64,000 bases of DNA from Trichobilharzia regenti (Eukaryota; Platyhelminthes; Trematoda; Strigeidida; Schistosomatidae). Below are positions 2,420 to 59,700 of this stretch, in pieces. Numbering within the stretch: position 1 is the first letter of the stretch; each line of letters opens with the position of its first letter. The stretch covers positions 44,144,352 to 44,208,351 of the forward strand of contig OX235270.1 of the NCBI GenBank assembly GCA_944472135.2, written 5' to 3'. The position numbers and the translations under genes were made by a program. The notes below the pieces were generated by a model that made no database searches, was not told the origin of the DNA, and was given only the letters and a program-made list of their open reading frames with translations.

Positions 2420-2725
2420 AATTCACCTCGCTTGATATCAGTATCAAACTTCACTTTCACTATGATGACAAATTTTATTGATAGATTGATGAGTTAGATA
2501 TTTGGAGAAGACTTTGTTCTGTCTGCGTAAATACCTTCTTAGAGAATCTACAGAATGTAAAACTAAAAGACAGTCCTAGAAATAATATTTTACATCATAT
2601 CTGTTGATGATACTTTCATTACATTCAGTGCATTATCTTATACGTCCTATTTATTAGAAAACTTTAAAAGCAGATATAACAATATTGAATTCAGTATGCA
2701 ATTTCCGCAAGGTTTAGTTATCTAT
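2420..2725 (+). pseudogene. Short, strongly decayed PLE reverse-transcriptase fragment
   Basis: Translation in shifting frames gives a series that follows the PLE RT core: a KLHFHYDDKFY-like block corresponds to the xxHFLFNxEYYRQ block of the intact copy. It is followed by FLENLQNVKLKDS (the FLAKLENGPLK block) and a DDTFI-like block near 2606. Stops and indels interrupt it throughout. It is a separate and older fragment than the one at 244-1660. Confidence 0.5.
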
Positions 2726-2847
2726 ATATACATCACTATACGAAGTAGGAAAGAAGATAAGCTTCAAAAATCCATATATCTACCAAGCACGTGTATTGAA
2801 ATTCGTGTGAATTTTATCAACTATGGTTCACTAAGGCACTAACAGGC

Positions 2848-27000: not shown

Positions 27001-30000
27001 CTTATTCCCAGACGTTGCCTCGTACCTTAGTTAATCTACATACTAGTATGTCACCCCCATGTTTAAACACCTCCGGAATAATTCCGTCGGGTCCTGCTGC
27101 TTTGCCTCGTTTCAAATTACAGATAGCTTTTGTGACCTCGCTTACAGACGGCGGACCAGTGTCTATATCCCATTCGGGTGTGTGCTGGATGGCGGGAGGT
27201 TCAGTGTGGCTGTAGCCAAGTTAAATTGTTCCTCAAAGTGTTCTTTCCAGCGTTCAAGGCGTTTATCCTGAGAGCTAATTAAGGAGCCATTTTTCTCAGA
27301 AATAGTCTCGCTTATGATTTGCCTTCTCCCACCCGTTTCCATGATGAGTCTAAAGAGTTAACTAGTGTTTTCCTAAAGCTTACCGTACTTAGAACTTCTA
27401 TTATTATGAAAAAACAACAGGCGCTCAAAACACACTTCAAAAAATTAACATGTATGGTACCGTAAATATGATAATCTACTTCATTCATCAGTTATGTCCA
27501 AAAAAAATATTTAAGTGTTGGTTTGTAGGGATTTGATTGGTTACAGGATTTCATCATGAGGCGATATTAGTTAGAGGACCATTGGAAAACCTGGGAGTAC
27601 TGGACAGATGTTTTGTCCTAGTTTGGGACTCTTCATCAGTAGGCATCCACCGGGGTTCGAACCCGGTTTTATTCATCACTTTTTTAATTGAGAAAATAAA
27701 GTCCTAGCACATTGCTTATGGAGTAAAAACCACTTATTTTAGTTTAAAACCATTTTCCCTATTGGCCTGAAAAACTTTTGTTGCATTTGAATTTCTCCAT
27801 AAACGTTAGGGATAGGATTTCACTTTTGTCAATGTTACCATGAAAGTAAATCATGGACTAAGGGGTATTTGACTTTAAAAAAATAAATGAATACTAGAGA
27901 GATATTATTAAAACATTTTCAACACTAATAAATTGGGAAATGAAGGAATTAAAATGGGTTAATATATGTAAGTGAGCTTATGAATAAATATATTGAGATG
28001 CTTAGGGTAATTAATAACTGTGCAAATCGATCGGATTTTGAATAATTCCATTAAGAAATTTATCAAAAAACCATTTTGTTGTATAAATTGGTTGCCACTG
28101 AAAGTTTTTATCACTGTTTCTGTCTAAAGACACGGGGTAGTGGGAGTGATAGTAACAGGATTCTCATATGGTACTAACTTCTAATGAAAACTGCTTTATA
28201 TCTTTGACAGCACTTTCTTCTGATATCTTTAGTTAAAAACGTACCAACTTATTGTCACAAGCTGTTTAACATCCCAAAGTGAACATGTAGTGCATATAAT
28301 GATCTTATTATGGGACCTCGACGCCCATTTCTACTAAACGATACACTAATAAAGTCTTATGTTATGAACTCGTTTTAAACTATCACTAATTTTGAAGTTG
28401 TGCGGTATATGGTGAATATATCAGTCTGAAGTGTAGCGGTAGTGTACAACTGAAAGGATGTTCAAGAGAAATAAACTAAGACATCACAACAGTCCACTAA
28501 GTGGCTAACTGCAAGTAAAAACATTAATATAAAAGGTAAGAGTTTCTCCAACAAAACTGTTAAGATGCTAGAGCTCTAAAACTGGAGCTACTAACCTGAA
28601 GTTAAATACACTTGGCCAGAAGTATTTGCTCTCCAATAAGACCGAAGTTATAAGCGTCTTACTACAGTAGAGCAACTATCTACCCTTGATATATGTATAA
28701 AACTATCTACCCCTTATTCAACCCTTTACACGTTAGTATTTCTGCTGAATTTTTATTTTTGTTCAGTTAAAAAATGTGACGACTTGAAATAATGAAGTTT
28801 CAAGCGAACTCCCAGATCAGTGTTTTTCTGATGGTTTTCTAACCTACTCATAACTCATAGCCTTGGAAATTTATGAGTAATAGTATTTACCCTCATATAT
28901 GTATATACCGATTGCTCTTTGATTGATCTGTGGTTGCTATAAGTTATACATTGTTTATCAGGAGAAGATTCATTAAATATAAAATAATATGATATACAAT
29001 ATTTAGATTTACTGGTTGAATTATATTGGAAAATTCGCAATCTCTAATGCCTGGACTGAAAGGTGAATAAATTTGTCAAGAGTATAATAAGCCAGGATGT
29101 TACTAATGTACACCGATCTACTGTAATCCACTTTTAAGGATCCAAAACAGCTTTAAGTCTCACTTCACCATATTAGTTCTGAACAAGCAGTAAGTTTTAC
29201 AAGTTCTTATATACTAGGTGTAGTTGATAGTCTTACGGGACTGGCGAACGTAGTAGTGGTGTGTACTGATTAGTTCATGTGTTGAAAATTATTGTAACCT
29301 TACTTATAGCATTCAGGATAATGATTCAGGTAGATATTAATAGCTGAAAATAACTTGAAGTAATGACTCTGTCACGGTTTTATTCGAAATAGTAAATAAT
29401 TTAAATATGTGTTAATATGCTAACTGCATCCCATGTGACTCAAGTGGTAGCCAAACGTGTTTTCCCAGATAACGTAGTCCACACTTTGTGTAACTTCAAA
29501 CATTTCCGCTTATATAAAATAAATTTGATAATGACGGAGCCACTCCATATTCACTGATTCTCAATCAGCTCACTGTCAGTTTTCCGAACAAACCTATAGA
29601 AATACTAGGCTATATATGTCGAGCGAGCAGAATTTGCTGGAGGAATACTTATGGAGGTGCTAAACTAAAAACAGATAAATAAGACTAATTAATGTCAGTA
29701 GTGGAAAATCATATGTCCATTCTAACAATGAATTTCGCATTATTTTGAACCAAAGACTTGCAAAAACGACATATGCGTAAAAACAAGTCAGGAGACTTAA
29801 ATAAAATGAGAATCAAAGGTAAATATATGCCGCATAATGAGTCATTGTAAGATAACAAGGTCTTTCTAATATAAGTGTGAACAGAGTAGTAATTTATGAA
29901 CCACGAAGTGTTAAAAAACAATATATCAAATTGCTTAACTGGAGTTAGCTTGATTATCCCTAAAACTCAGTGCTTATTTAGAGTTTCCATAAATCTAACT

Positions 30001-34007: not shown

Positions 34008-35836
34008 ATGGATATGCAAGTTCAGTTCGAAAACTTCTTTGCAGAGACTGAAGGCTTGACACCCTCGTCAGCTGAGGCAGTTGAAAGTCTTAAATCAACT
34101 CTAGTCGACTGTTGTTATAAATATATGAATAGTAAACGAAAACTAAATAGCTCATTGACCAAGAAACACAGGGAAGCCTTAGAGAAGCTGCGAAATAATG
34201 AAGATATAATAATTTCGAAACCTGATAAAGGCTCTGGAGTAGTCATGATGAATAAAACTGAATACATAGATAAGATGAATGGAATACTCAGTGATCATCG
34301 TAAATTTCAAAAAATTACATCTTGCGTTGATCCATAAGAAAAAGGTGAGAAACAACTAATTGAGTCACTAAAAAGACTTAAACAACAAAGTAGCATAATG
34401 GACGGTTTATATGAATCGTTAAAGCCTACTGGCACGGTTACGCCAAGACTATATGGACTACCAAAAGTGCATAAAATCGGTTTGTCACTTCGACCAGTGT
34501 TGGACATGCGTAATTCCCCATATCACGCAACAGCGAAATGGTTAGTGAATCCCCTAAAGCCTCTGGATAATGAAGTGGTAAAACATAGCGTAAACGGCAG
34601 TTTTGAATTTGTGGAAAAAATAGCAGATCTTAATGTGAGGGACAAGTTTATGATATCTTTTGATGTATCCTCCTTGTTCACCAATGTACCGTTAATAGAA
34701 ACAGTGGATTTTGTATGTGAGGAGATTACTACACGAAACATAGACATAGGCATTTCTGTATCCACCTTGAAGGAACTTATTTTAAGATGTGCAATGAATG
34801 TTCATTTCTTATTCAATAAGGAATATTACAGACAAATTGATGGTGTGGCTATGGGTTCCCCATTAGGTCCAATCCTAGCTGATTTTTTCCTCGCTAAGTT
34901 AGAGAATGGACCACTGAAAGAAGTAAATAATGACTTGGATTTCTACTGTCGATATATGGATGAGACATTTCTGGTTATGAATTACGAGAATGATGCAATG
35001 AACACCCTTGACAAGTTTAATGATGCACATTCAGCAATAAATTTTACCATAGAGAAAGAAAGTAATGACAGTATCTCATTCCTAGACGTCTTCATGGTAA
35101 GGAGAGAAGATGGCACACTAAGAAGAAGTGTGCATAGGAAGCCTACAACAACAGGTCATTTTTTGAGTTTTGTACCTTTGAAATATAAACGCAACCTCGT
35201 GAAGTGTCTGGCTCATAGAGCTAGGTTAATCTGTTCAGACGACTGCCTCAATGAGGAGCTTAAGATTATTAGAGAATTACTTAGAAAAATGGCTATCCAG
35301 ATAAATTCATTGAGAAAAATATAAATTCAGCTCCAAGGAGAGTCAGTATGGCCACAGTCCCGAAAAAACCAATGTTCATAAAATTGCAGTTCCTCGGTGA
35401 CAACATCAGCGAATTAATAACACAGCGCCTGAAGAATGCAGTTAAAAGAGCTTATTATGCAGCAGAGGTACGTTGTCTCTTTACAACCACACCTATTTTA
35501 TGTTCGAGAAATAAGGATAAACTACCTAAATTCGCCTCTTCTATGTGTATCTGTCATTTTGACTGCAGCCGCGGAGCCAGCTACATTGGATGTACAATTA
35601 GGCAGGTTCATCATCGTAATTCCGAACACCATTCAGCATGGTTAAGCAAGGGACGAACAAGATCTATTCGTAGCTCTATTTTAGCACACCTTGTAGATAG
35701 TGGGCATAAGGTTGATGTTAATACTGCATTTAAAATTATTTATCGCATTCCGACGTATCTTAATTTTGCTCTACGAGTTCGTCTTCTACAGACAGTTGAA
35801 GGAATAGAAATTCACCTGAAGAAGCCAAACCTGTGA
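34008..35836 (+). pseudogene. PLE reverse transcriptase-endonuclease, broken
   Basis: The 5' part (34008-34337) has the finger block SKPDKGSGVVMMNKTEYI. It ends at a TAA (34335-34337) that lies in frame with the next block (34398-35324), so one stop interrupts the RT. The RT continues with PRLYGLPKVHK, FDVSSLFTNVP (motif A), GVAMGSPLGP, and YMDET at about 34960-34975, where a catalytic YxDD box is expected: the second Asp is Glu. A frameshift between 35324 and 35348 leads into the linker (FIKLQFLGD, ITQRLKNAV). The Cys-rich GIY-YIG endonuclease follows: CDCSRGASYIG... with RNSEH, and DSGHKVD near the end. Three independent defects make it non-functional as it stands. The N-terminus is short compared with full PLE proteins. 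Confidence 0.93.
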
Positions 35837-39145: not shown

Positions 39146-39150
39146 AGTCT

Positions 39151-39471
39151 TGTCAATGCAGTTGAAGATTGAACGATCAATTCATGGTTGTTTGATCAAA
39201 CCAACCGCCCCAATTTTCGCGGAGGCATCAATACGACAGTCATCGTCTCATCGGTCGCTGTTCAGAAAGAAGTCAGCAGTAAACCATCAGAAAACCTAGA
39301 AAAAACATTATTTTTATATGTTGGTGAAACAATAAAGAATTCTCGAGTGGCCAATCGGTCTTTTGGTTTTTCGTCCGTTATTACTAAGCGTTTCTGAAAA
39401 ACTGCAAGGAACAGCGTGGGCCCGAGCGTAGCAAGAGCTGGGCATTAACGGTTTATGAGACGTGGCTGACA
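39151..39471 (+). repeat. LTR 1 (321 bp, lacks the 38-nt segment)
   Basis: Starts TGTCA and ends TGACA. It differs from LTRs 2-4 by several substitutions in its first 70 bases, one single-base gap, and the exact absence of a 38-nt GT...AG segment (junction between 39292 and 39293). Confidence 0.93.
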
Positions 39472-39616
39472 GTTTCTGATGGTAGAAACAGACTTTGTCG
39501 GATTCAGACAGTTGGTGAAAGTTTGGATAATCACCGTTCATCTTTCCTGGTGCCGGCCAAGTCCTCTTTGAACAAGCAATATCTGGAACGTTTTTGGAAT
39601 TGGGTCAAGTTCAACA

Positions 39617-41572
39617 ACGCCTGGGTCAAAGAAGGGACAGAGTGTCTTGGATGCAAACAGGAAAGTAAGTCATGGTGACCTGTCTGTTGATTGTAACGAT
39701 GTGTCTGATGTTAAGCATGACATGGTTGATGTTACTGTTTCGCCGTCCAGGGATAATAGGAACATCAAACTCCCTAAATAAGAACCACGGTGTTTTGATG
39801 GAAACCCAGCTGATTATTTACTATTTGTAAAGGAGTTTGAGATCATGCTGAATAGTTTTCTATTAAATGATGAATTGAAGTTAATGTATTTGATGAGATA
39901 TTGCACTGGAGATGCTGCAAGAGCTATGCAGTGCTGTAAGTTTATGAAGCCAAAAGAGGGCTACTACGAGGCTATGAGCATATTACGTCAAAGGTTTGGA
40001 AGACCTTCGATGATTACAGGGAAATTATTCGAGGCTGTTAAGGGTAATGGTGGTCAATTACAGGATGGCTCCCAGGCACTTACTGAGTTTTTAGATAATT
40101 CGCTAATTTACAAGAATGGAATGATTGCGATGAATCGCATGAGTGACCTCAACTCGAGTTTTATACTAGAAGTAATAGCAAGACGCCTACCTACTCGACT
40201 GCAAACGAAGTGGGTGAAGATAAGCTCCCGTATGGAGGATGAGGGTATCGAGCCAAAATTTGATGATATCCTGAAACTAGTAAAAGATAGTGTCAATCAA
40301 TCTATGAGCAAGTTCGCCAGCCTATTACATCTCACCCCTAGAATAGAGCAGTCTGAGAGCAAAATGCAATCATTGATGACGAGTAGGCCTCAGAGAGGTG
40401 GATATCGAGAAGGCTCCACGATGTATAGTAATGCATATAGACCTAGTGAGTGTAACAGGATACGTAGTACATCCTCAACAGATAAGTTACAAGATGCAAG
40501 ACAAACACGGTTGTGTTTTACACGTTTGCAAGAGGTGCATACAGAAGTGAACTGTGAACCAGTGAGCAAGTTCAGTGATAAGCTAAATGTAAACTCCAGG
40601 CCTGACTCCGAATTGTGTGACGATAACGGTGCGGTGAAGAAGTCTGTAGTTGCAACTGGTAAGCCATTGTTGAATAGAGTGTCACAGAATAGAGTTGCTG
40701 CTTCAGAGTGCAGTTCTGACTCCACAAGTTTACAAGGTAATACTAGTCAGAGTGAAGGTATAAAACCTTTAAGGATTTGTGAGGAGGAACCAAAATTGTC
40801 TACTTCTGTTATTAAAGAGTTTGAAAATGATGAACTTGACGGTAAAGTGAATATTCGTGATAATGATCATGATACTTCACAGTTGTCTTTGGTTGATCAT
40901 GATGAAATGAGGGGAATGCCTACTACTGCTAAGTTAAATAAAGGTTCTGTACAACTACAACGTGAAGTAGAATTGAACGCAGATGCAGTTCCAGAAGGTG
41001 TGCATACTTGTGAGACAGTCAGTGTAATTGATCAGCGTGTAGCCCACCTATCATCAGATGATAGTGCTAAACCTGAGCTGATAGTAAAAGACAGCAGTGG
41101 TGGTGGTCTTGCAGGTAGACAACGTTCTGAAAGTCGGGCAACAACAGCTTCTGATCCACCGCTAACTTCATCACCTTGTGTCACTCAGTCGTCGTTGGTG
41201 TTGTCATCCACAATGAAATGGACGTCCATGAACTCACGTGCCTTATGCAATGACTATGATAGTATTGGTGCGTTTGAAAAGACGAAAGATATTGCTCAGT
41301 TTAGTGAGAATAAGCCAAGTGTAAACGAGAGAGTAATTGTTAAATTGACTTGCATGAATAAAGGCATTTCTAGTTTCAAGTTACTAATTGAATGCTATTA
41401 TCTTTGGTGTAAATTACTCTGTTTCTACACTTGGTTGATGAGATATGTCGTGTGTTTGTTCGTCATCTATATTCTACGATACAATGACATGGGCGTGTTG
41501 CCGTTCAGATTTGAGGATATAGCTCATAGAAGGAAGTTAGCAAATGAACTCTGCGACGATTTTCCAACCTAG
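39617..41572 (+). pseudogene. gag-like gene, unit 1, start lost and early stop
   Basis: Same gene as at 43220-45175. The start codon is ACG (39617-39619) where the other units have ATG. Codon 55 is TAA (39779-39781), where unit 2 has TTT and unit 3 has TTA; a single T-to-A change from the unit 3 form explains it. The remainder is open to the normal stop, with an internal ATG at 39845. It encodes the same Gag core, mutated knuckle and membrane segment. Confidence 0.9.
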
Positions 41573-41580
41573 AGCGTCAA

Positions 41581-42016
41581 CCTGAGAAGGGTTGTAGGCG
41601 TACTGCTGTAAGTCCTACAGTTCTTCAAAGGGTAGCGCATCAATGAGCAGTCCAATGTGCTTGGTGTGTGATTTTGTACATATGTTCATATTGTATATAC
41701 TGAATTGATATCATCTGTCATCTAGCTGTTGGTAATTCTGTTTGTGTCCGGACGACTTCCACTTGGATCATCAACCTGAGAAGGAATGTAGGCGTACTGC
41801 TGTAAGTCCTACAGTTCTTCAAGGGTAGTTTGTCATGCCGGAATCCACAACATTTGATGTAGTGATTGTACATATGTTTGTGTTAAATAGTTGTGTGAGT
41901 TCCAATTATGTAATTGTTGGTTAATCTTGTTTGTGTCCGGACATTCCACAACTTACAATCGTCAACCTGAGAAGGGTTGTAGGCGTACTGGTGTAAGTCC
42001 TGCGATTCTTCAAAGG
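41581..42016 (+). repeat. Three hairpin boxes, unit 1
   Basis: Boxes at 41581-41631, 41775-41824 and 41966-42016 share CCTGAGAAG...TGTAGG, a loop of about 15 bases, and CCTACAGTTCTTCAAAGG. The arms pair at about 13 of 18 positions. The spacing of 191-194 bases, with weak similarity between the spacers (TTTGTGTCCGGAC), shows a decayed tandem repeat of about 192 bases just after the gag stop codon. Confidence 0.85.
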
Positions 42017-42492
42017 AATTCCATCGAGACATGATCTGCGAGTTTGTTTGTACTGTTTGTATATACGTGTGGTGTGTCATATCAATTGGTGTTTTTGGAT
42101 TCATTGTGTTTACTTGTTGTTTTCGTACCTTGTTGTTATTGCGTAATTTTGTTAAAATTTTCGTCGTGATTACTTCTGAAGTTGTTTCGAGTCTTCTACA
42201 TCCGTGAATGAATTGATTGATGTTAAGGACAGCAGATGGGTCGTATACGCCGGGGAGGCTATTGCTGAGAATGAAATGCATACGGAGATAATTGTTAGCT
42301 GCGGTCCGACACGCCGGGGAGAAAGAGTGTAAACGACTGAGGCTCGCATGCGTCACCGCTACTAGAACTGAGGCAGAATGAGTGACAAGCGATTGCAGTG
42401 GTAATTGGTAGTGAGTAGATAAGAGGATGTGCGTAGAGTATCATGAGGTGGTGCTATGGTCACGTTGCATTCTGCAAGAGTCATTCTAGCAA

Positions 42493-43001
42493 GTGGCGAT
42501 TGTGTTGCAAGATGTCAAGAGGAGGTCTCTATCTGGAGGCGCAGGTCGTCAGCGATGTGTGAGATTGTGCTGTGGGTATGCTTGTGGTGTGTTGGCTTTT
42601 CTGTTTGTTTTCCATTTCAGCTCTGTCCGTGTGACCCAGGTTCTCGCAATGGCATCCAAGTCAACGTGTATTGGTCGTGAAGGAAAAAAGGGATGGATCC
42701 CTTTTTGCCGGGGAGTGTCAATGGAGTTGAAGATTGAACGATCAATTCATGGTTGTTTGCTCAAAATCAACTTCCCCAATTTTCGCGGAGGCATCAATAC
42801 GACAGTCATCGTCTCATCGGTCGCTGTTCAGAAAGAAGTCAGCAGTAAACCATCAGAAGTAATCTTGTGATTTATTATTGTAATATTTGTTCACAGACCC
42901 TAGTAAAAACATTATTTTTATATGTTGGTGTAACAATAAAGAATCCTCGAGTAGCCAATCGGTCTTTTGGTTTTTCGTCCGTTATTACTAAGCGTTTCTG
43001 A
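42493..43001 (+). other. Recurrent small frame crossing into the LTR, unit 1/LTR 2
   Basis: A 125-codon frame (42493-42870) begins in the non-coding tail, has a hydrophobic stretch (GVLAFLFVFHFSSV), and enters the LTR. It stops inside the 38-nt intron-like segment. Removing 42859-42896 would extend it to 43001 (156 codons). The same frame recurs at 46097 and 49701. No known domain was recognised and no expression evidence exists here. Confidence 0.35.
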
Positions 43002-43075
43002 AAAACTTCAAGGAACAGCGTGGGCCCGAGCGTAGCAAGAGCTGGGCATTAACGGTTTATGAGACGTGGCTGACA
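42716..43075 (+). repeat. LTR 2 (360 bp)
   Basis: TGTCA...TGACA ends. It contains the 38-nt GT...AG segment at 42859-42896 and a polyadenylation signal AATAAA at 42935-42940. A purine tract GAAGGAAAAAAGGGA lies at about 42679-42693, upstream of the LTR. TGGTAGAAACAG at 43084-43095, just after it, is a possible primer-binding site, although the priming tRNA was not identified. Confidence 0.93.
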
Positions 43076-43219
43076 GTTTCTGATGGTAGAAACAGATTTG
43101 GCGGATTCAGACAGTTGGTGAAAGTTTGGATAGTCACCGTTCATCTTTCCTGGTGCCGGTCAAGTCCTCTTTGAACAAGCAATATCTGGAACGTTTTTGG
43201 AATTGGGTCAAGTTCAACA

Positions 43220-45175
43220 ATGCCTGGGTCAAAGAAGGGACAGAGTGTCTTGGATGCAAACAGGAAAGTAAGTCATGGTGACTTGTCTGTTAATTGTAAC
43301 GATGTGTCTGATGTTAAGCATGACATGGTTGATGTTACTGTTTCGCCGTTCAGGGATAATAGGAACATCAAACTCCCTAAATTTGAACCACGGTGTTTTG
43401 ATGGAAACCCAGCTGATTATTTACAATTTGTAAAGGAGTTTGAGATCATGTTGAGTAGTTTTCTATTAAATGATGAATTGAAGTTAATGTATTTGATGAG
43501 ATATTGCACTGGAGATGCTGCAAGAGCTATACAGTGCTGTAAGTTTATGAAGCCAAAAGAGGGCTACTACGAGGCTATGAGCATATTACGTCAAAGGTTT
43601 GGAAGACCTTCGATGATTGCAGGGAAATTATTCGAGGCTGTTAAGGGTAATGGTGGTCAATTACAGGATGACTCCCAGGCACTCACTGAGTTTTTAGATA
43701 ATTTGCTAATTTACAAGAATGGAATGATTTCGATGAATCGCATGAGTGACCTCAACTCGAGTTTTATACTAGAAGTAATAGCAAGACGCCTACCTACTCG
43801 ACTGCAAAGGAAGTGGGTGAAGATAAGCTCCCGTATGGAGGATGAGGGTATCGAGCCAAAGTTTGATGATATCCTGAAACTGGTAAAAGATAGTGTCAAT
43901 CAATCTATGAGCAAGTTCGCCAGTCTATTACATCTCACCCCTAGAATAGAGCAGTCTGAGAGCAAAATGCAATCATTGATGACGAGTAGGCCTCAGAGAG
44001 GTGGATATCGAGAAGGCTCCATGATGTCTAGTAATGCATATAGACCTAGTGAGTGTAACAGGTTTCGTAGTACATCCTCAACAGATAAGTTACAAGATGC
44101 AAGACAAACACGGTTGTGTTTTACACGTTTGCAAGAGGTGCATACAGAAGTGAACTGTGAACCAGTGAGCAAGTTCAGTGATAAGCTAAATGTAAACTCC
44201 AGGCCTGACTCCGAATTGTGTGACGATAACGGTGCGGTGAAGAAGTCTGTAGTTGCAACTGGTAAGCCATTGTTGAATAGAGTGTCACAGAATAGAGTTA
44301 CTGCTTCAGAGTGCAGTTCTGACTCCACAAGTTTACAAGGTAATACTAGTCAGAGTGAAGATATAAAACCTTTAATGATTTGTGAGGAGGAACCAAAATT
44401 GTCTACTTCTGTTATTAAAGAGTTTGAAAATGATGAACTTGACGGTAAAGTGAATATTCGTGATAATGATCATGATACTTCACAGTTGTCTTTGGTTGAT
44501 CATGATGAGATGAGGGATATGCCTACTACTGCTAAGTTAAATAAAGGTTCTGTACAACTACAACGTGAAGTAGAATTGAACGCAGATGCAGTTCCAGAAG
44601 GTGTGCATACTTGTGAGACAGTCAGTGTAATTGATCAGCGTGTAGCCCACCTATCATCAGATGATAGTGCTAAACCTGAGCTGATAGTAAAAGACAGCAG
44701 TGGTGGTGGTCTTGCAGGTAGACAACTTTCTGAAAGCCGAGCAACAACAGCTTCTGATCCACCGCTAACTTCATCACCTTGTGTCACTCAGTCGTCGTTG
44801 GTGTTGTCATCCACAATGAAATGGACGTCCATGAACTCACGTGCCTTATGCAATGACTATGATAGTATTGGTGCGTTTGAAAAGACGAAAGATATTGCTC
44901 AGTTTAGTGAGAATAAGCCAAGTGTAAACGAGAGAGTAATTGTTAAATTGACTTGCATGAATAAAGGCATTTCTAGTTTCAAGTTACTAATTGAATGCTA
45001 TTATCTTTGGTGTAAATTACTCTGTTTCTACACTTGGTTGATGAGATATGTCGTGTGTTTGTTCGTCATCTATATTCTACGATACAATGACATGGGCGTG
45101 TTGCCGTTCAGATTTGAGGATATAGCTCATAGAAGGAAGTTAGCAAATGAACTCTGCGACGATTTTCCAACCTAG
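43220..45175 (+). CDS. BEL/Pao-type Gag-like protein, unit 2
   Basis: Encodes 651 residues. Residues about 50-180 match the Gag/DUF1759-type domain of BEL/Pao elements: LPKFEPRCFDGNPADYLQF, then LMYLMRYCTGDAARAI, YYEAMSILRQRFGRP and a GKLFEAV block. A zinc-knuckle position follows with the exact CX2CX4HX4C spacing, but Arg replaces the second Cys (C300, R303, H308, C313). Residues about 330-560 are Ser/Asp/Glu-rich and look disordered. Residues about 589-622 are strongly hydrophobic and Cys-rich, like a membrane segment, which is unusual for Gag. Gag proteins coat and package element RNA. There is no pol downstream. The start is the ATG at 43220, because unit 1 has lost the same codon. A strong donor-like GTAAGT lies at 43268. 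Confidence 0.85.
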   Translation: MPGSKKGQSVLDANRKVSHGDLSVNCNDVSDVKHDMVDVTVSPFRDNRNIKLPKFEPRCFDGNPADYLQFVKEFEIMLSSFLLNDELKLMYLMRYCTGDAARAIQCCKFMKPKEGYYEAMSILRQRFGRPSMIAGKLFEAVKGNGGQLQDDSQALTEFLDNLLIYKNGMISMNRMSDLNSSFILEVIARRLPTRLQRKWVKISSRMEDEGIEPKFDDILKLVKDSVNQSMSKFASLLHLTPRIEQSESKMQSLMTSRPQRGGYREGSMMSSNAYRPSECNRFRSTSSTDKLQDARQTRLCFTRLQEVHTEVNCEPVSKFSDKLNVNSRPDSELCDDNGAVKKSVVATGKPLLNRVSQNRVTASECSSDSTSLQGNTSQSEDIKPLMICEEEPKLSTSVIKEFENDELDGKVNIRDNDHDTSQLSLVDHDEMRDMPTTAKLNKGSVQLQREVELNADAVPEGVHTCETVSVIDQRVAHLSSDDSAKPELIVKDSSGGGLAGRQLSESRATTASDPPLTSSPCVTQSSLVLSSTMKWTSMNSRALCNDYDSIGAFEKTKDIAQFSENKPSVNERVIVKLTCMNKGISSFKLLIECYYLWCKLLCFYTWLMRYVVCLFVIYILRYNDMGVLPFRFEDIAHRRKLANELCDDFPT

Positions 45176-45183
45176 AGCGTCAA

Positions 45184-45620
45184 CCTGAGAAGGGTTGTAG
45201 GCGTACTGCTGTAAGTCCTACAGTTCTTCAAAGGGTAGCGCATCAATGAGCAGTCCAATGTGCTTGGTGTGTGATTTTGTACATATGTTCATATTGTATA
45301 TACTGAATTGATATCATCTGTCATCTAGCTGTTGGTAATTCTGTTTGTGTCCGGACGACTTCCACTTGGATCATCAACCTGAGAAGGAATGTAGGCGTAC
45401 TGCTGTAAGTCCTACAGTTCTTCAAGGGTAGTTTGTCATGCCGGAATCCACAACATTTGATGTAGTGATTGTACATATGTTTGTGTTAAATAGTTGTGTG
45501 AGTTCCAATTATCGTAATTGTTGGTTAATCTTGTTTGTGTCCGGACATTCCACAACTTACAATCGTCAACCTGAGAAGGGTTGTAGGCGTACTGGTGTAA
45601 GTCCTGCGATTCTTCAAAGG
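45184..45620 (+). repeat. Three hairpin boxes, unit 2
   Basis: Boxes at 45184-45234, 45378-45427 and 45570-45620, equivalent to those in unit 1. Confidence 0.85.
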
Positions 45621-46096
45621 AATTCCATCAAGACATGATCTGCGAGTTTGTTTGTACTGTTTGTATATACGTGTGGTGTGTCATATCAATTGGTGTTTTT
45701 GGATTCATTGTGTTTACTTGTTGTTTTCGTACCTTGTTGTTATTGCGTAATTTTGTTAAAATTTTCGTCGTGATTACTTCTGAAGTTGTTTCGAGTCTTC
45801 TACATCCGTGAATGAATTGATTGATGTTAAGGACAGCAGATGGGTCGTATACGCCGGGGAGGCTATTGCTGAGAATGAAATGCACACGGAGATAATTGTT
45901 AGCTGCGGTCCGACACGCCGGGGAGAAAGAGTGTAAACGACTGAGGCTCGCATGCGTCACCGCTACTAGAACTGAGGCAGAATGAGTGACAAGCGATTGC
46001 AGTGGTAATTGGTAGTGAGTAGATAAGAGGATGTGCGTAGAGTATCATGAGGTGGTGCTATGGTCACGTTGCATTCTGCAAGAGTCATTCTAGCAA

Positions 46097-46606
46097 GTGG
46101 CGATTGTGTTGCAAGATGTCAAGAGGAGGTCTCTATCTGGAGGCGCAGGTCGTCAGCGATGTGTGAGATTGTGCTGTGGGTATGCTTGTGGTGTGTTGGC
46201 TTTTCTGTTTGTTTTCCATTTCAGCTCTGTCCGTGTGACCCAGGTTCTCGCAATGGCATCCAAGTCAACGTGTATTGGTCGTGAAGGAAAAAAGGGTTGG
46301 ATCCCTTTTTGCCGGGGAGTGTCAATGGAGTTGAAGATTGAACGATCAATTCATGGTTGTTTGCTCAAAATCAACTTCCCCAATTTTCGCGGAGGCATCA
46401 ATACGACAGTCATCGTCTCATCGGTCGCTGTTCAGAAAGAAGTCAGCAGTAAACCATCAGAAGTAATCTTGTGATTTATTATTGTAATATTTGTTCACAG
46501 ACCCTAGTAAAAACATTATTTTTATATGTTGGTGTAACAATAAAGAATCCTCGAGTAGCCAATCGGTCTTTTGGTTTTTCGTCCGTTATTACTAAGCGTT
46601 TCTGAA
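46097..46606 (+). other. Recurrent small frame crossing into the LTR, unit 2/LTR 3
   Basis: Same 125-codon frame as at 42493 (46097-46474), ending inside the 38-nt segment at 46463-46500. Removal of that segment would extend the frame to about 46605. Confidence 0.35.
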
Positions 46607-46679
46607 AAACTGCAAGGAACAGCGTGGGCCCGAGCGTAGCAAGAGCTGGGCATTAACGGTTTATGAGACGTGGCTGACA
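46320..46679 (+). repeat. LTR 3 (360 bp)
   Basis: TGTCA...TGACA; the 38-nt GT...AG segment is at 46463-46500. Nearly identical to LTRs 2 and 4. Confidence 0.93.
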
Positions 46680-46823
46680 GTTTCTGATGGTAGAAACAGA
46701 TTTGGCGGATTCAGACAGTTGGTGAAAGTTTGGATAGTCACCGTTCATCTTTCCTGGTGCCGGTCAAGTCCTCTTTGAACAAGCAATATCTGGAACGTTT
46801 TTGGAATTGGGTCAAGTTCAACA

Positions 46824-48779
46824 ATGCCTGGGTCAAAGAAGGGACAGAGTGTCTTGGATGCAAACAGGAAAGTAAGTCATGGTGACTTGTCTGTTAATTG
46901 TAACGATGTGTCTGATGTTAAGCATGACATGGTTGATGTTACTGTTTCGCCGTTCAGGGATAATAGGAACATCAAACTCCCTAAATTAGAACCACGGTGT
47001 TTTGATGGAAACCCAGCTGATTATTTACAATTTGTAAAGGAGTTTGAGATCATGCTGAATAGTTTTCTATTAAATGATGAATTGAAGTTAATGTATTTGA
47101 TGAGATATTGCACTGGAGATGCTGCAAGAGCTATACAGTGCTGTAAGTTTATGAAGCCAAAAGAGGGCTACTACGAGGCTATGAGCATATTACGTCAAAG
47201 GTTTGGAAGACCTTCGATGATTGCAGGGAAATTATTCGAGGCTGTTAAGGGTAATGGTGGTCAATTACAGGATGACTCCCAGGCACTTACTGAGTTTTTA
47301 GATAATTTGCTAATTTACAAGAATGGAATGATTTCGATGAATCGCATGAGTGACCTCAACTCGAGTTTTATACTAGAAGTAATAGCAAGACGCCTACCTA
47401 CTCGACTGCAAAGGAAGTGGGTGAAGATAAGCTCCCGTATGGAGGATGAGGGTATCGAGCCAAAATTTGATGATATCCTGAAACTAGTAAAAGATAGTGT
47501 CAATCAATCTATGAGCAAGTTCGCCAGTCTATTACATCTCACCCCTAGAATAGAGCAGTCTGAGAGCAAAATGCAATCATTGATGACGAGTAGGCCTCAG
47601 AGAGGTGGATATCGAGAAGGCTCCATGATGTCTAGTAATGCATATAGACCTAGTGAGTGTAACAGGTTTCGTAGTACATCCTCAACAGATAAGTTACAAG
47701 ATGCAAGACAAACACGGTTGTGTTTTACACGTTTGCAAGAGGTGCATACAGAAGTGAACTGTGAACCAGTGAGCAAGTTCAGTGATAAGCTAAATGTAAA
47801 CTCCAGGCCTGACTCCGAATTGTGTGACGATAACGGTGCGGTGAAGAAGTCTGTAGTTGCAACTGGTAAGCCATTGTTGAATAGAGTGTCACAGAATAGA
47901 GTTACTGCTTCAGAGTGCAGTTCTGACTCCACAAGTTTACAAGGTAATACTAGTCAGAGTGAAGGCATAAATCCTTTAATGATTTGTGAGGAGGAACCAA
48001 AATTGTCTACTTCTGTTATTAAAGAGTTTGAAAATGATGAACTTGACGGTAAAGTGAATATTCGTGATAATGATCATGATACTTCACAGTTGTCTTTGGT
48101 TGATCATGATGAAATGAGGGGAATGCCTACTACTGCTAAGTTAAATAAAGGTTCTGTACAACTACAACGTGAAGTAGAATTGAACGCAGATGCAGTTCCA
48201 GAAGGTGTGCATACTTGTGAGACAGTCAGTGTAATTGATCAGCGTGTAGCCCACCTATCATCAGATGATAGTGCTAAACCTGAGTTGATAGTAAAAGACA
48301 GCAGTGGTGGTGGTCTTGCAGGTAGACAACGTTCTGAAAGTCGAGCAACAACAGCTTCTGATCCACCGCTAACTTCATCACCTTGTGTCACTCAGTCGTC
48401 GTTGGTGTTGTCATCCACAATGAAATGGACGTCCATGAACTCACGTGCCTTATGCAATGACTATGATAGTATTGGTGCGTTTGAAAAGACGAAAGATATT
48501 GCTCAGTTTAGTGAGAATAAGCCAAGTGTAAACGAGAGAGTAATTGTTAAATTGACTTGCATGAATAAAGGCATTTCTAGTTTCAAGTTACTAATTGAAT
48601 GCTATTGTCTTTGGTGTAAATTACTCTGTTTCTACACTTGGTTGATGAGATATGTCGTGTGTTTGTTCGTCATCTATATTCTACGATACAATGACATGGG
48701 CGTGTTGCCGTTCAGATTTGAGGATATAGCTCATAGAAGGAAGTTATCAAATGAACTCTGCGACGATTTTCCAACCTAG
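46824..48779 (+). CDS. BEL/Pao-type Gag-like protein, unit 3
   Basis: Encodes 651 residues with the same domain order as the unit 2 protein. I see eight amino-acid differences from unit 2, for example Leu for Phe at codon 55, Asn for Ser in MLNSF, and Cys for Tyr in YCLW. At several of these sites unit 1 agrees with unit 3 (MLNSF, RGMP, RQRSE) and at others with unit 2 (YYLW, KLANE), so the units are mosaics. The mutated knuckle (second Cys to Arg) and the C-terminal hydrophobic segment are kept. Both intact genes have remained open. Confidence 0.85.
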   Translation: MPGSKKGQSVLDANRKVSHGDLSVNCNDVSDVKHDMVDVTVSPFRDNRNIKLPKLEPRCFDGNPADYLQFVKEFEIMLNSFLLNDELKLMYLMRYCTGDAARAIQCCKFMKPKEGYYEAMSILRQRFGRPSMIAGKLFEAVKGNGGQLQDDSQALTEFLDNLLIYKNGMISMNRMSDLNSSFILEVIARRLPTRLQRKWVKISSRMEDEGIEPKFDDILKLVKDSVNQSMSKFASLLHLTPRIEQSESKMQSLMTSRPQRGGYREGSMMSSNAYRPSECNRFRSTSSTDKLQDARQTRLCFTRLQEVHTEVNCEPVSKFSDKLNVNSRPDSELCDDNGAVKKSVVATGKPLLNRVSQNRVTASECSSDSTSLQGNTSQSEGINPLMICEEEPKLSTSVIKEFENDELDGKVNIRDNDHDTSQLSLVDHDEMRGMPTTAKLNKGSVQLQREVELNADAVPEGVHTCETVSVIDQRVAHLSSDDSAKPELIVKDSSGGGLAGRQRSESRATTASDPPLTSSPCVTQSSLVLSSTMKWTSMNSRALCNDYDSIGAFEKTKDIAQFSENKPSVNERVIVKLTCMNKGISSFKLLIECYCLWCKLLCFYTWLMRYVVCLFVIYILRYNDMGVLPFRFEDIAHRRKLSNELCDDFPT

Positions 48780-48787
48780 AGCGTCAA

Positions 48788-49224
48788 CCTGAGAAGGGTT
48801 GTAGGCGTACTGCTGTAAGTCCTACAGTTCTTCAAAGGGTAGCGCATCAATGAGCAGTCCAATGTGCTTGGTGTGTGATTTTGTACATATGTTCATATTG
48901 TATATACTGAATTGATATCATATGTCATCTAGCTGTTGGTAATTCTGTTTGTGTCCGGACGACTTCCACTTGGATCATCAACCTGAGAAGGAATGTAGGC
49001 GTAATGCTGTAAGTCCTTCAGTTCTTCAAGGGTAGTTTGTCATGCCGGAATCCACAACATTTGATGTAGTGATTGTACATATGGTTGTGTTAAATAGTTG
49101 TGTGAGTTCCAATTATCGTAATTGTTGGTTAACCTTGTTTGTGTCCGGACATTCCACAACTTACAATCGTCAACCTGAGAAGGGTTGCAGGCGTACTGGT
49201 GTAAGCCCTGCGATTCTTCAAAGG
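48788..49224 (+). repeat. Three hairpin boxes, unit 3
   Basis: Boxes at 48788-48838, 48982-49031 and 49174-49224. In the third box both sides of the inner stem have changed together (GCAGG with CCTGC, where units 1 and 2 have GTAGG with CCTGC), giving full Watson-Crick pairing. In the second box one arm is disrupted (CCTTC). Confidence 0.85.
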
Positions 49225-49700
49225 AATTACATGGAGACACGATCTGCGAGTTTGTTTGTACTGTTTGTATATACGTGTGGTGTGTCATATCAATTGGTGT
49301 TTTTGGATTCATTGTGTTTACTTGTTGTTTTCGTACCTTGTTGTTATTGCGTAATTTTGTTAAAATTTTCGTCGTGATTACTTCTGAAGTTGTTTCGAGT
49401 CTTCTACATCCGTGAATGAATTGATTGATGTTAGGGACAGCAGATGGGTCGTATACGCCGGGGAGGCTATTGCTGAGAATGAAATGCATACGGAGATAAT
49501 TGCTAGCTGCGTTCCGACACGCCGGGGAGAAAGAGTGTAAACGACTGAGGCTCGCATGCGTCACCGCTACTAGAACTGAGGCAGAATGAGTGACAAGCGA
49601 TTGCAGTGGTAATTGGTAGTGAGTAGATAAAAGGATGTGCGTAGAGTATCATGAGGTGGTGCTATGGTCACGTTGCATTCTGCAAGAGTCATTCTAGCAA

Positions 49701-50210
49701 GTGGCGATTGTGTTGCGAGATGTCAAGAGGGGGTCTCTATCTGGAGGTGCAGGTCGTCAGCGATGTGTGAGATTGTGCTGTGGGTATGCTTGTGGTGTGT
49801 TGGCTTTTCTGTTTGTTTTCCATTTCAGCTCTGTCCGTGTGACCCAGGTTCTCGCAATGGCATCCAAGTCAAAGTGTATTGGTCGTGAAGGAAAAAAGGG
49901 ATGGATCCCTTTTTGCCGGGGAGTGTCAATGGAGTTGAAGATTGAACGATCGATTCATGGTTGTTTGCTTAAAATCAACTTCCCCAATTTTCGCGGAGGC
50001 ATCAATACGACAGTCATCGTCTCATCGGTTGCTGTTCAGAAAGAAGTCAGCAGTAAACCATCAGAAGTAATCTTGTGATTTATTATTGTAATATTTGTTC
50101 ACAGACCCTAGTAAAAACATTATTTTTATATGTTGGTGAAACAATAAAGAATCCTCGAGTAGCCAATCGGTCTTTTGGTTTTTCGTCCGTTATTACTAAG
50201 CGTTTCTGAA
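49701..50210 (+). other. Recurrent small frame crossing into the LTR, unit 3/LTR 4
   Basis: Same 125-codon frame (49701-50078); it would extend if 50067-50104 were removed. Confidence 0.35.
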
Positions 50211-50283
50211 AAACTGCAAGGAACAGCGTGGGCCCGAGCGTAGCAAGAGCTGGGCATTAACGGTTTATGAGACGTGACTGACA
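49924..50283 (+). repeat. LTR 4 (360 bp), right end of the array
   Basis: TGTCA...TGACA, with the 38-nt segment at 50067-50104. Followed directly by the second copy of the 5-bp duplication AGTCT. Confidence 0.93.
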
Positions 50284-50288
50284 AGTCT

Positions 50289-54500: not shown

Positions 54501-56767
54501 AAAATGGACTCAGTTTTGCTTCGATCTTTCCCCTCACATTTCATTGCGTGAATTCCATCATCACACCTTGTTTTCAAAGACTACTTCCACATCGTGCCAC
54601 CTAATTTATGGCATATCGGGTCATACATCAATGCTTTTATTCAACACAAGTGCAGAAAGAACGAGCGACATAATTTCACTTGATGAATGAACTAGTGACT
54701 CACCACTTCTTATCGACGTATATTAGAGCAGAAGGCTCACATTTTAACTAGGTCAAATCGGGCTACAAGATGCGGATATTTTATTGAAGTGCTTAAATAT
54801 AGAAATAATATAATAAGTCAGACACAAAGGTACTCGCATGCTACTCTGGGAGTGCAACCAGGGTGAGTTGCTACAACTGTATTCAGATAGATATTCATAC
54901 TTCACTAACATAAATTTCACATATAAAGTGAAATGTTCTTCAATCACATTAACTCAGAAACGGGTTTATTCAATAAGTCCTTCTGTCATCCAATGTTAGT
55001 GATGTTTAGCGGATAATTACCGCTTCTTTTGAAGTTTAAAGATTTACGTAAACCATGCTTTGGTTAGAAGGCATGCATGTTTGTGAGAAAATGGGAAATA
55101 TATATGAAGAGAGCACTTAGAGAGGTGATTAAATAGCTGGGAAAACAAGAGTATGCGACACTTCATGATCACACCTACTTTTGATAAAAACTATTTTTAC
55201 TATTGCACAACTATATTCGTAATCCTTTATTGTTCCTGAGTCCCATTGCTTTATTGATTAATATTAATCTCTTATTCCTATCAAGTTGAAAATTACTATC
55301 TTGAACGCTAACCGTAGTTTCTATGATGAATTAAATAATAATTGTGGCTGTGTTAACGTATGTGTGCTAATTGCGATTGTAAATTTATTGAGAATGAAAT
55401 CATTGAAAAGATCGCGGAAAGTCTTGTTTTCTCTCTGATTTCCTGGTGAATCTCCTAATATCAAATGGGATGATAAACGATCACCAGTCTGACGTAAGTA
55501 CCCTGGATTTCTTTAGCTTAGTTAATACCTTAATAAACAGTAATTCATCATTAATCTCCTTAAACATCTTTGGAGCGCAACGTCCACTGTCTTACTTTGC
55601 TTTTGCAACCTCAACCGCAGTTACAGGACTACTATCTACAACGTATTCGAGTAGTTTTCGGATCAACCTGTTTAGGATAAGCATTCTCAAAACAGTTGAC
55701 TTTACCGGAAGCATCATATAGCCGCATATTTCTTGATATTATTAAAATGTTTATTATGCAGTCTCAATCGAAATAAAGTTTGATTGACGCCTGTTTAATG
55801 TAACACCACTAGTCTGGACGTTTGCGGATTGTGTTGTTAAACACAACCTTTACAGTCAACAACAGAAGGTAATCTAAAGTTGCTCCTTTATGTTTCAGTT
55901 AATCAATTAAGAATTTTTGTGGGTCAAGTGGAATTTACTTGAACAATTTAAATTCTTCCAAATGGCTCAGACCGATACTTCATGGACTAGCTGTCGTTTT
56001 TATAATCCGTTTCAAGCATGTGAACTGCTAGTTCTAGGTTTAAAGTATTACCCCAAACCAGAAAAAAACGAATTAGGAAGTAACATTACTGTGTAGTGGT
56101 TTAAGTTGGTTAATTTGCACCGTAGTAGTCACCCACTTTTTGGTTTTTCCACTCACAGCATCTAGGAACTTCACTCTAGTTTCCATAAAACAGCACGTCA
56201 TGGTGAACAATGGGTAAATATGTATGACATCTTTTAATCACCTCAAAAATGGGTATTTATAACGCCGGCTGATACATCAATTTTGTCTACGATTGTATTT
56301 TTCGTTTTCTCTATTGTTCACATCGTGGTTTCGCAGAACATTAGCATTTCTGTGAGGCCTAATGGACCATGCGGTAGTGCAGTTGCAGTGCACTTGACAC
56401 TCAGTGTTTAGTGTCGAAAACGAAGTGTTCGTCTCAGTGTTGAAATTCCGTCACCTAACAACTATGAAGAGTTCCTAAGAATTCTCATGTAAGTTGAGTG
56501 GTCAATGCCATCCCCTAACTGAATTTCAGGCCAGACGGTGTCGGAATGTTAGTATTATCTATTTACCCACCTCTGTGTCTTTGAAAACACTTTATCCTAT
56601 CGTCGTTAATAATAAGCATAATGTAACTGACTGAGTTTAAGTGTATTCATTGTTCTCATAGACCATTTTATCTTTCTTCTCTTTGTTTGCAAGTGCTTTC
56701 AACTCTTATCGTACACAAAGAATATTCAAAATGTCTTCCAATATCGTGTTAGCCGCTTGTTAAGAAA
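51546..56767. other. Gene-poor stretch upstream of NDST
   Basis: 5.2 kb of AT-rich sequence with microsatellites ((TA)n at 52717-52739 and an AT-rich run at 53836-53880). A GC-richer patch lies at about 53280-53450. No retroelement block or exon was recognised. NDST promoter and 5' UTR sequences should lie near the right end, but no element can be named. Confidence 0.4.
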
Positions 56768-59700
56768 ATGCATTTAAAATTCAGAATTCGTTTTCTAATA
56801 ACAGTACTGCTTCTTTTGACGATTTTGTTTTTAATAACATGGAGATTCTCAGGATTTCCCAACCAATATATATCAAGAGTGAGTTTATTCGAGGTGGAGT
56901 TCGGAAACTTGAAGCCAACTTTAATAAAGACTAAAGGATACGAATGTCATTCACATGACATAGAAGTTTTTCAACCTCAGATGAGTACATATCATAAAGA
57001 TGACCATCAGCTGAAGTCTTGTGTAGACTGTAAGAATTCTGTGGTAGTTTTCACATTTTCGAAAAGTTCACCTACGAACAGATACTTAGCTTATATCCTG
57101 AAAGTTCTACTAATTCCATATCATGTAATTACTATTAATCACGTACAAGCAAACAGCATTTCAGCTTTTTTGAAAGTGCTTTCACATACTGAACGTATTA
57201 CTATGATAATTTTTGAGAACTTTGCTATTTACACTAATTTACCACAAGGAGAAAGATCTCAGGTTGATATTTTCTGCAGAAAGCACAATGTTGGAGTCAT
57301 TGGATTTTTATTCGATGGTGAAACCTTCACAACTGAAGCCGGCACATGGTCTAAGGTGAGCTAATTTACTTATTTCCTTCTAGATATAAGTTTTTGTTTG
57401 AACCATAACTTTGTTGCCACAAATTGTTTGAAGCCGTATATGGATTTATGTTCAACGTATAAAGGTATAAATTCCGTATTTTTTTCCTTCATGTTCCCAG
57501 TGGAACATAGGGCCAGTGGCTTGAAGTTTCTGTAGCAGTGTTTAATTTTACAGGATGGGGTTGCTAGCCTCATGCCCAACCTTTCTTCTTTACCAGCATT
57601 ATTTCTGGTTCAGCGAGGTAAAGGAGTTCGTCGGCCGGGGATCGAACCCCGAACCATGTGCATGGTCGGCGAGCGTCCTAACCACTGTGCCACCGACGCA
57701 TATAAATTCCGTATGCTAGTGGATAAAATGACATTCCACACATGCGATGTTTGATTGGTTTTTTTACAATATATGTTGGTGTTCATGAGATAATTGAATA
57801 TAATTGCTTATTAAGAAAACTAAAAGCTGGTAAGTATTCATAAGTAGAATTTACTGTCTTTAAACATTCAATCTACTTATGAACTGAGATATATGTTTAA
57901 AAAATGAAAATGGTTAGCACTTGTTACATATTTAAGTTCATTTGGTAAAGGTGATCTAAAAACTACGTGAAATAGAAGAGTCAAACCTAAAAGTTTTTGA
58001 TGGTCCATCTCCCCTGTAAAACTACAATGCTGTATACCTATCACAGTAGTTAATTACTTTGTTTGATTGCATGGAGGATTTCACCATGAGCTGACATCAG
58101 TTAGAGAACCACTGAAAAACCAGCTGGGAGTACTGGAAAGCTGTTCCGTCCTAGTTTGTGACCCTTCAGCAGTACGCACCAACCGGGGTTCGAACCCAGG
58201 ACCTTCTGGCTACAAGGCGAGCTCGTAGACCATTGAGCCACTGGGACCTGATCCACTGGCCCTTGAGTTCTAACTTCTGCCAATTCACAACATAGCGCGA
58301 CCATTTCTCAATGTCTTCTTCGATGAGTTACTGCCTCATCTTCAACCTGCTGATGTCAGCCTATGGTGAAATCCTCCATGCAATCAAACAAAATCCCTAC
58401 AAAACGAATACTTGAAAATTACTTTGTTATTTGCTTTTCTAATCAAGACCGTTATCGTCAACCTTCTTCTACCTTAACTACACAGCATTGATACTCAAGT
58501 GTAGACACTAAAATATTTGATTCCTAATCTTGGTGTGTTACACTGTTGGGATCCTTTTAAAAATTTTCAAACTGGCAGGCTTATTGCGTATTGAACACCT
58601 ATGAAGCTGGCCAAATCAAAACCAATTCAGGGAAACTCATCATTCGTCAAAATAAATCACAATTTCCTGAAGTATGGTGAGAGTACCAAAAGCACTAGGT
58701 CTGATATAGAAGATTTGTAGCTCAGGTGGATGGCTTTGATGTGGTTGCGTTTTGTGAGCTGATGGCTTTAATTGTGAAGACTTCATAGCCCTTCTAGACA
58801 ACCTCTTCATCTCAAACTTCAGTATGAAGTGGGAACATTTTTCGTTGGTGAATAAGGCTTTACGTCCATGCACATTGTCCGGGGTTCGATCCCCGGCCGA
58901 CGAACTCCTTTACCTCGCTGAACCAGAAATAATGCTGGTAAAGAAGAAAGGTTGGGCATGAGGCTAGGAACCCCAACCTGTAAAATAAACACTACTACAG
59001 CAACTTCAAGCCACTAGCTTGAAGCCCTATGTTCCACTGGGGAACGTGAAGGAAAAAAAACAAGTACATATTCACACCTGTGCGGAAATAAGGAGAAAAA
59101 TAACCACCGACAGCCATTTGTAACCGTTTTTTATACACAGTTGTTGGAATTTTAGAAGTGAAGCTTTCCTTGTATGGTTTCTGAGTTCTTTCCAGCTAAG
59201 TGAGAATTACAGTTACACTGTTTATAAACGTTCATATTGCTTGATATATTAATATGTGAAATATCTCACAAGCCCTGTAACATTTATGGAATTTTTGACC
59301 ATCCAAAAGAATTCTAATAATGTCCTGTCGTGGAATTTTCTCACATTTTCGACGTAATTGTTGACATTTTTCTACACTTTAGAATAAATGCTGCCTGTTT
59401 TGTGCACATAAAATTAAGTAGCCCATACTAGTTACCAAGATACTGAGCAGATTTTAAGTAGTAAAGTAGCGCTAGTAAACAGTAAGCAATGTAGTGAGTG
59501 CATATAACGAATATAAATATGTGAGTTCTACTAACTGAGTATACTAAGAAGTTGGTAGTGGTGATATCATTGGATTCATTAGCCTATTTTCCATCTTGGT
59601 TGGTTTAATTCTCTCATTTCTTAACCCACTTTCACTTCGTCTTCATATTTTAGTATGGTGTATCTTTGGGTATCTACGGTGTAAAATGCTTTGTAATTTC

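Follow-up and report, generated by a model that had tools for sequence, protein, structure and literature searches.

A tandem array of a gag-only BEL/Pao-type element in Trichobilharzia regenti and its likely pol-bearing partner

In the genome of the schistosomatid trematode Trichobilharzia regenti, a stretch of 64,000 nucleotides (contig OX235270.1, positions 44,144,352 to 44,208,351, starting at C8:44,144,352 in the 954-Mb assembly; this whole stretch is called the window below) contains a tandem array of long terminal repeat (LTR) elements, each unit of which carries gag but no pol. Two questions are raised by this locus: how an element without its own enzymes can move, and how three units came to lie at one insertion site. 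Our preferred answer is that a gag-only BEL/Pao-type element of high copy number is present here in three copies that share LTRs, and that its ends match those of a pol-bearing partner; the element would have been moved by the enzymes of the partner and have swapped ends with it, and an old insertion at this site would have taken up younger copies. We give this reading a probability of roughly two thirds.

The array alternates four LTRs with three internal regions, each 3,244 bp long, and neighbouring units have an LTR in common (Table 1). The period of 3,604 bp, which a repeat finder yielded independently, is exact except at LTR1, which is 39 bp (39 alignment columns) shorter. The layout reported in an earlier note on this DNA, made from the sequence alone, holds. 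Only one target-site duplication, AGTCT, was found, and it lies outside the whole array, as that note had said. LTR2 and LTR3 differ at 1 of 360 positions, LTR3 and LTR4 at 5 of 360, LTR1 and LTR2 at 11 of 321, and LTR1 and LTR4 at 13 of 321, and the pairwise differences between the internal regions are 38, 46 and 38 in about 3,243. No further copy of the unit was found in the window, where just chance matches of 20 to 23 bp were seen. A gag frame of 651 amino acids is open in units 2 and 3 and broken in unit 1, in agreement with the earlier note; the unit is therefore not free of coding sequence, as a TRIM or LARD would be. DUF1759, which we take to be the Gag domain of BEL/Pao elements, was detected by Pfam in units 1, 2 and 3 (27.7, 42.7 and 41.8 bits; cut-off, 25.4), and nothing else in the units scored above the cut-off. 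A BEL gag-pol protein aligned to the array over its gag part alone (residues 130-403). Because the unit has a Gag with DUF1759 but no Pol (Pao peptidase A17 and reverse transcriptase), we call it a BEL/Pao-type non-autonomous element and not a complete BEL/Pao element; the type and the lack of pol proposed in the earlier note are both borne out for each unit. Directly after the gag stop, each unit has three imperfect repeats of about 190 bp with a strongly kept head of about 56 nucleotides. These repeats are also present in the pol-bearing partner, and may be a packaging or export signal. Inside the array, Rfam gave no match at gathering level, and inspection by eye, in place of a dedicated search, revealed no convincing tRNA match for a primer-binding site.

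The absence of pol is true of the units, but it is a property of a dispersed, high-copy family and not of this locus. A search of the genome with gag DNA gave 5,460 loose candidates and one with the gag-only core 4,610, numbers that are not copy counts; 40 were scored in each search, and those of the gag search were 97-100% identical, three being the array's own units. From the other 37 gag matches, we took 20 siblings with 4 kb on each side, some of which are not independent of each other (L018 overlaps L025, and a local duplication links L016 to L020). A complete LTR pair is present in 17 of the 20 pieces and none in the remaining 3. Separate insertions with their own exact 5-bp duplication, for which the earlier note had proposed to search, account for 8 of the 17 (L009, L011, L016, L017, L019, L021, L022 and L026), two (L025 and L018) lie in one further three-unit array, and seven have no exact duplication. 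Read from the flanking sequence, the duplications are traces of past movement of gag-only copies, and of past movement only. The 651-aa frame is kept in 16 of the 20 siblings. The second three-unit array (C8, 58.05 Mb) is bracketed by AGTGG. Another such array, suggested by the spacing of C9:3534026 and 3544843, was rejected, as no LTR was found in the pieces around the two inner points. Other local duplications contain the element at C4:61.67-61.69 Mb (L016/L020) and C1:115.32 Mb (L024), with periods of about 9.57 kb and 6.08 kb.

Among 38 protein database matches, 33 are named T. regenti, 2 T. szidati and 1 Schistosoma japonicum. Those with full coverage are stand-alone proteins of 638-663 amino acids, one cluster representing 61 sequences, and they include a T. 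szidati gag-only protein with 62% identity over its full length; thus, the gag-only form also exists at other loci and in another species. When 34 database proteins were set against the 20 siblings, none was an exact match (best, 96.4%). A search of the protein database for a long gag-pol protein with the N-terminus of the gag-only Gag found none, a negative result that was misleading, since gag-pol frames were later found in the genome. A search from the S. japonicum protein gave two weak extra matches and no wider gag-only lineage, and no match to the element was found in viral contigs. In one T. regenti protein (P0033), gag-only core sequence is fused to a PAP2 phosphatase domain; it may be a gene-model artefact or an exonised copy.

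One such gag-pol frame belongs to an element with the same ends. The genome was searched for the Pao peptidase domain (150 scored of 1,546), and a partner was found through an LTR match 2.7 kb ahead of such a domain with an open frame of 1,651 amino acids (locus L029/L030), which answers the proposal of the earlier note to look for an element with the same LTR plus pol. On the 5' side of the partner, the LTR is 98.1% identical and internal columns 1-848 are 91.4% identical to those of the array, after which there is no similarity; past column 848, its frame has two intact knuckles and YVDD, and a pattern search of the 5' piece found no third knuckle pattern. On the 3' side, internal columns 2083-3244 and 201 bp of the 3' LTR are each 97.5% identical, and the frame closes with DDFPT-stop. 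The assignment of DUF1759 to Gag agrees with the nature of this partner. Four additional pol-bearing loci were chosen for frames of 1,651-1,654 amino acids. The 5' block is shared by all five pol-bearing loci examined (88-92% identity in the additional four), and every match stops at column 848. An LTR match is present in the fetched piece of three of the four (in one it is only 72 bp long, at the edge), and the fetched piece of the remaining locus has no LTR match and matches only in columns 203-848. The 3' pieces of two of these four loci match at 91-94%. Common to the partner and the gag-only unit are the LTR, the leader, the capsid segment, the 3' region and the end of the reading frame. 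The gag-only unit has just one stretch of its own, a 1.2-kb core for the C-terminal two thirds of Gag, which has no DNA similarity to the partner pieces compared. By this alignment, the gag-only unit equals the partner, except that some other coding sequence of about 1.2 kb takes the place of the knuckles and pol. The partner likely supplies the reverse transcriptase and integrase that move the gag-only element.

Identity to the partner drops inwards, from 95-100% in columns 0-420 to 78-92% in columns 420-840 and none in the core, and is 97.5% in the 3' block. At gag amino acids 1-50, the window and the partner agree at 50 of 50 positions, the window and the T. szidati gag-only protein at 24, and the T. 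szidati protein and the partner at 24; at amino acids 51-234, the corresponding numbers are 160, 125 and 134 of 184. The core of the window is 61% (amino acids 321-560) and 71% (amino acids 561-651) identical to its counterpart in T. szidati, which occupies the corresponding place in the gag-only protein of that species. As the core resembles that of T. szidati to this degree while the start of gag is fully like the partner and much less like T. szidati, the core is older than the shared ends; and since a core with a T. szidati homologue is joined to ends that match the resident partner, the ends of the gag-only element were probably exchanged with the partner. Among 16 T. regenti gag-only proteins compared (of 33), seven have blocks of partner-type residues with differing borders in the capsid (P0002, P0004, P0007, P0009, P0016, P0017 and P0020). 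RNAs of the gag-only element and the partner would be packaged in shared particles, and template switching between them could keep swapping the ends; in this manner, the gag-only element would remain recognisable to its helper and carry its own core along. The identity of both ends to the partner (91-98%) and the same final codons would also be expected if the gag-only unit were a mere recent deletion derivative of the partner without a history of its own. However, the core is not partner DNA in the pieces compared, its homologue lies at the same place in T. szidati and the frame is kept in most of the 20 siblings, and we consider such an origin very improbable.

The protein itself gives some indication of what the gag-only element retains. 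The Cys-His box (zinc knuckle), which is a feature of BEL/Pao Gag and threefold in most members, is degenerate in all 13 aligned gag-only rows, and a C-terminal membrane helix is predicted. The protein may have a capsid fold of the retroviral type, a two-lobed helical domain, for which support is weak. In a comparison with a structure library of viral proteins, nothing was found at E <= 0.001 among the fold families in the structure listings, and the best rows, which miss this threshold, include plant pararetrovirus coat proteins and one retroviral Gag. Among 18 intact open reading frames (ORFs), the ratio of non-synonymous to synonymous polymorphism (pN/pS) is 0.44 in the capsid, 0.87 in the knuckle region and 0.90 and 0.97 in the remaining parts; by this measure, the capsid is held by purifying selection. 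A kept capsid, a degenerate knuckle and a predicted membrane helix may also suit a protein that chiefly acts against the partner, as an interfering or copy-number-limiting capsid, in a manner like the copy-number control of Ty1 (PMC7055915). The element is abundant, however, as a passenger would be, and we regard interference as its chief role as unlikely.

The second question concerns the history of the array. The three units differ at 63 variable columns (two of them single-base gaps), at which unit 1 is the odd one out 25 times, unit 3 23 times and unit 2 15 times. The earlier note had described the units as mosaics, with unit 1 like unit 3 at some variable sites and like unit 2 at others, and had invoked gene conversion. 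The mosaic is confirmed in outline, but the pattern is not scattered: one breakpoint (column 1226/1288) sorts 45 of the 48 columns private to unit 1 or unit 3, with 3 misplaced, and none of 100,000 shuffles was as good. Gap-free sites were also compared with the 20 siblings: where one unit stands apart, the rarer state belongs to unit 1 at 23 of 24 of its sites and to unit 3 at 23 of 23, whereas unit 2 has the commoner state at 15 of 15. The protein homologues give the same picture at 15/15, 3/3 and 3/3 non-synonymous codons (two codons with three states were excluded). When a rare state is defined as one found in at most 15% of the 20 siblings, and the units are split at column 1257, the rare states on the left and right number 21 and 2 in unit 1 only, 0 and 22 in unit 3 only, 4 and 6 in units 1 and 3, and 0 and 17 in all three, and unit 2 has none to itself. 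Because of the 17 common to all, the units appear to be of one lineage. The outer edges thus look decayed and the inside younger, and unit 2, which is pristine, looks the youngest. At the 47 sites private to unit 1 or unit 3, 22 changes read as T to C or A to G and 6 as C to T or G to A, the opposite of the usual excess.

One possible explanation is plain expansion in place, in which unequal crossing over between the LTRs duplicated a single insertion, and the mosaic arose afterwards by mutation and by crossing over in gag. The single AGTCT duplication, the layout of the variants (that expected from one unequal crossover of a two-unit array) and the lack of an external donor among the top matches fit this history, and the tandem TRIMs of tapeworms have been credited to unequal crossing over (PMC4558846). 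However, copies made in place should age alike, and the private rare states (more than 20 each in the left of unit 1 and the right of unit 3, none in unit 2) and the commoner states of unit 2 do not fit. One unequal crossover of a two-unit array agrees with the layout but not with the polarity of the changes, and it is kept as a rival. We therefore consider expansion in place somewhat unlikely; the single insertion site of the earlier note stands, but not expansion there as a sufficient account, and the single breakpoint and the pristine middle unit are better explained by recombination with younger copies than by gene conversion. In our preferred reading, an old insertion would later have taken up younger copies by homologous recombination via LTR or internal sequence, with circular or linear complementary DNA (cDNA) or ectopic exchange as candidate routes, so that the outer edges would be old, the inside younger and the middle unit pristine. 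Ty1 cDNA can reportedly recombine homologously into existing insertions. The short LTR type, without about 38 bp, is found not only in LTR1 but also in L016, L020, L021 and L023; L016, L020 and L023 each combine a short with a long LTR, and since L016 in addition has a perfect 5-bp duplication, such recombination may not be unique to the array site. An assembly error that wrongly joined sequence of related copies into an old single insertion might also explain why decayed sequence gives way to clean sequence at one common position in units 1 and 3, and why the top matches in the assembly include no donor. Yet some states common to these two units are absent from all 20 siblings (columns 380, 609, 1652 and 1662), and a second bracketed three-unit array exists; an error of this kind is distinctly unlikely.

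Several observations weigh against exchange of ends and uptake of younger copies. Partner-type runs in the capsid of the 20 genomic siblings are short (the longest covers 5 of 73 diagnostic sites), and because residues of the partner type are also frequent in T. szidati at the diagnostic positions, a number of the blocks may be long-standing variants and not fresh exchanges. The gag-only Gag has no intact zinc knuckle, and the core is near-neutral among copies (pN/pS 0.87-0.97, against 0.44 in the capsid), with no sign of selection on it within the species. The second array does not have the old-edge pattern: there, 37 and 54 differences separate the divergent unit 2 from the other two, whereas units 1 and 3 have 19 between them. 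The younger stretch has no donor, since none with the states shared by units 1 and 3 was found among the top genome matches; likewise, no closer relative of either outer edge was found outside the array among the 40 scored matches (best, 97% and 96%). Of the 17 rare states common to all units, 14 lie in columns 1602-1731, where they may go back to a single event or reflect a poorly aligned patch. The outer ends themselves have changed since insertion, given that LTR1 belongs to the short type and LTR4 to the long one. Finally, the siblings were picked by likeness to the gag of unit 2, which biases unit 2 towards the common state within gag, although the 3' part played no role in this choice and shows the same pattern.

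The element resembles an animal BEL/Pao counterpart of the plant TR-GAG elements, arranged like tandem TRIMs. As in TR-GAG (PMC5818461, PMC8704663), there are two LTRs, one gag ORF, no pol and a short target duplication, and a related pol-bearing element in the same genome is a possible source of proteins, so the likeness noticed earlier is supported; a relationship of this kind has been proposed for AT5TE33540 and AT3TE48480 (PMC8704663). Unlike TR-GAG, the present element is BEL/Pao-type and in an animal, its Gag core is foreign to the partner, its Gag ends with the partner's pol terminus and its knuckle is degenerate. Among the open-licence papers listed by the searches, the gag-only LTR elements were from plants, and none from an animal was found. 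The partner is similar to Sinbad and other schistosome BEL/Pao elements (PMC554778) in its gag knuckles, reverse transcriptase with YVDD, Pao peptidase and one long frame, and the LTR is similar in length to that of Sinbad (386 bp, PMC554778); the gag-only unit differs from Sinbad in having no pol, and the likeness is one of description. The tandem TRIMs of tapeworms, bivalves and maize (PMC4558846, PMC6934838, PMC4528315) also form LTR-sharing arrays of LTR-internal-LTR, credited in these papers to recombination between copies, the longest in PMC6934838 being TDR58_I57; TRIMs carry no gene, whereas the unit here carries gag, and the middle unit of the array looks younger than its edges. The S. 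japonicum protein C7C1Z4 (P0035, 785 aa) contains DUF1759, ends in DDFPT as the gag-only Gag does, is 43% identical to it in the N-terminal 322 columns and gave no Pfam match to a pol domain. It differs in its intact knuckles and weak C-terminal similarity (26.6 bits), and was compared as a protein.

Outside the array, the window contains two type I hammerhead ribozymes at Rfam gathering level (23411-23455, plus strand, 66.1 bits; 27597-27642, minus strand, 38.9 bits). A reverse transcriptase ORF (34338-35836, plus strand; RVT_1, E 6.5e-12) is overlapped by a second frame, and a similar-looking ORF (672-1313, plus strand) has no Pfam match; both are presumably Penelope-like. An ORF with a heparan sulfate N-deacetylase N-terminal domain (56753-57364, plus strand; HSNSD_N, E 6.8e-8) is likely an exon of a host gene.

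Table 1. Features of the array and their positions in the window
Feature	Position	Strand	Basis
Left target-site duplication AGTCT	39146-39150	.	sequence reading
LTR1, 321 bp, short type without about 38 bp	39151-39471	+	
Internal region of unit 1 (left part holds most of its private changes)	39472-42715	+	
Disrupted gag of unit 1 (start codon missing, premature stop; still open over 39845-41572)	39617-41572	+	
LTR2, 360 bp	42716-43075	+	
Internal region of unit 2	43076-46319	+	
Unit 2, 5' block common to partner (leader plus gag as far as about aa 234; 848 bp at 91.4%)	43076-43923	+	
gag ORF of unit 2, 651 aa, DUF1759 at aa 60-205	43220-45175	+	
Unit 2, core specific to the gag-only element, with a degenerate zinc knuckle, a low-confidence part and a predicted membrane helix	43924-45157	+	
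Unit 2, 3' block common to partner (97.5% over 1163 aligned columns), including last codons DDFPT-stop	45158-46319	+	
LTR3, 360 bp	46320-46679	+	
Internal region of unit 3 (right part holds its private changes)	46680-49923	+	
gag ORF of unit 3, 651 aa, DUF1759 at aa 60-205	46824-48779	+	
LTR4, 360 bp	49924-50283	+	
Right target-site duplication AGTCT	50284-50288	.	sequence reading
Three imperfect repeats of about 190 bp per unit, 3' non-coding	41573-42071; 45176-45675; 48780-49279	+	

A further-reaching proposal, which we hold tentatively and at somewhat less than even odds, is that the element is a two-part parasite of a retrotransposon: its Gag core has been independent since before the two Trichobilharzia species split, and remains movable by repeatedly swapping in both ends of any pol-bearing BEL present in the host (LTR, leader and capsid segment on one side; 3' region, LTR and pol stop on the other), with old insertions as landing pads that take in younger copies through homologous recombination and grow from inside. 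The array would be a further case of an old insertion that seemingly holds younger copies. As the partner reads gag and pol in one frame, a separate source of Gag would change the balance of Gag to Pol. Furthermore, because a passenger, its likely helper and the seams between both are present in one genome, it becomes possible to test whether a gag-only element feeds, uses or hinders its helper.

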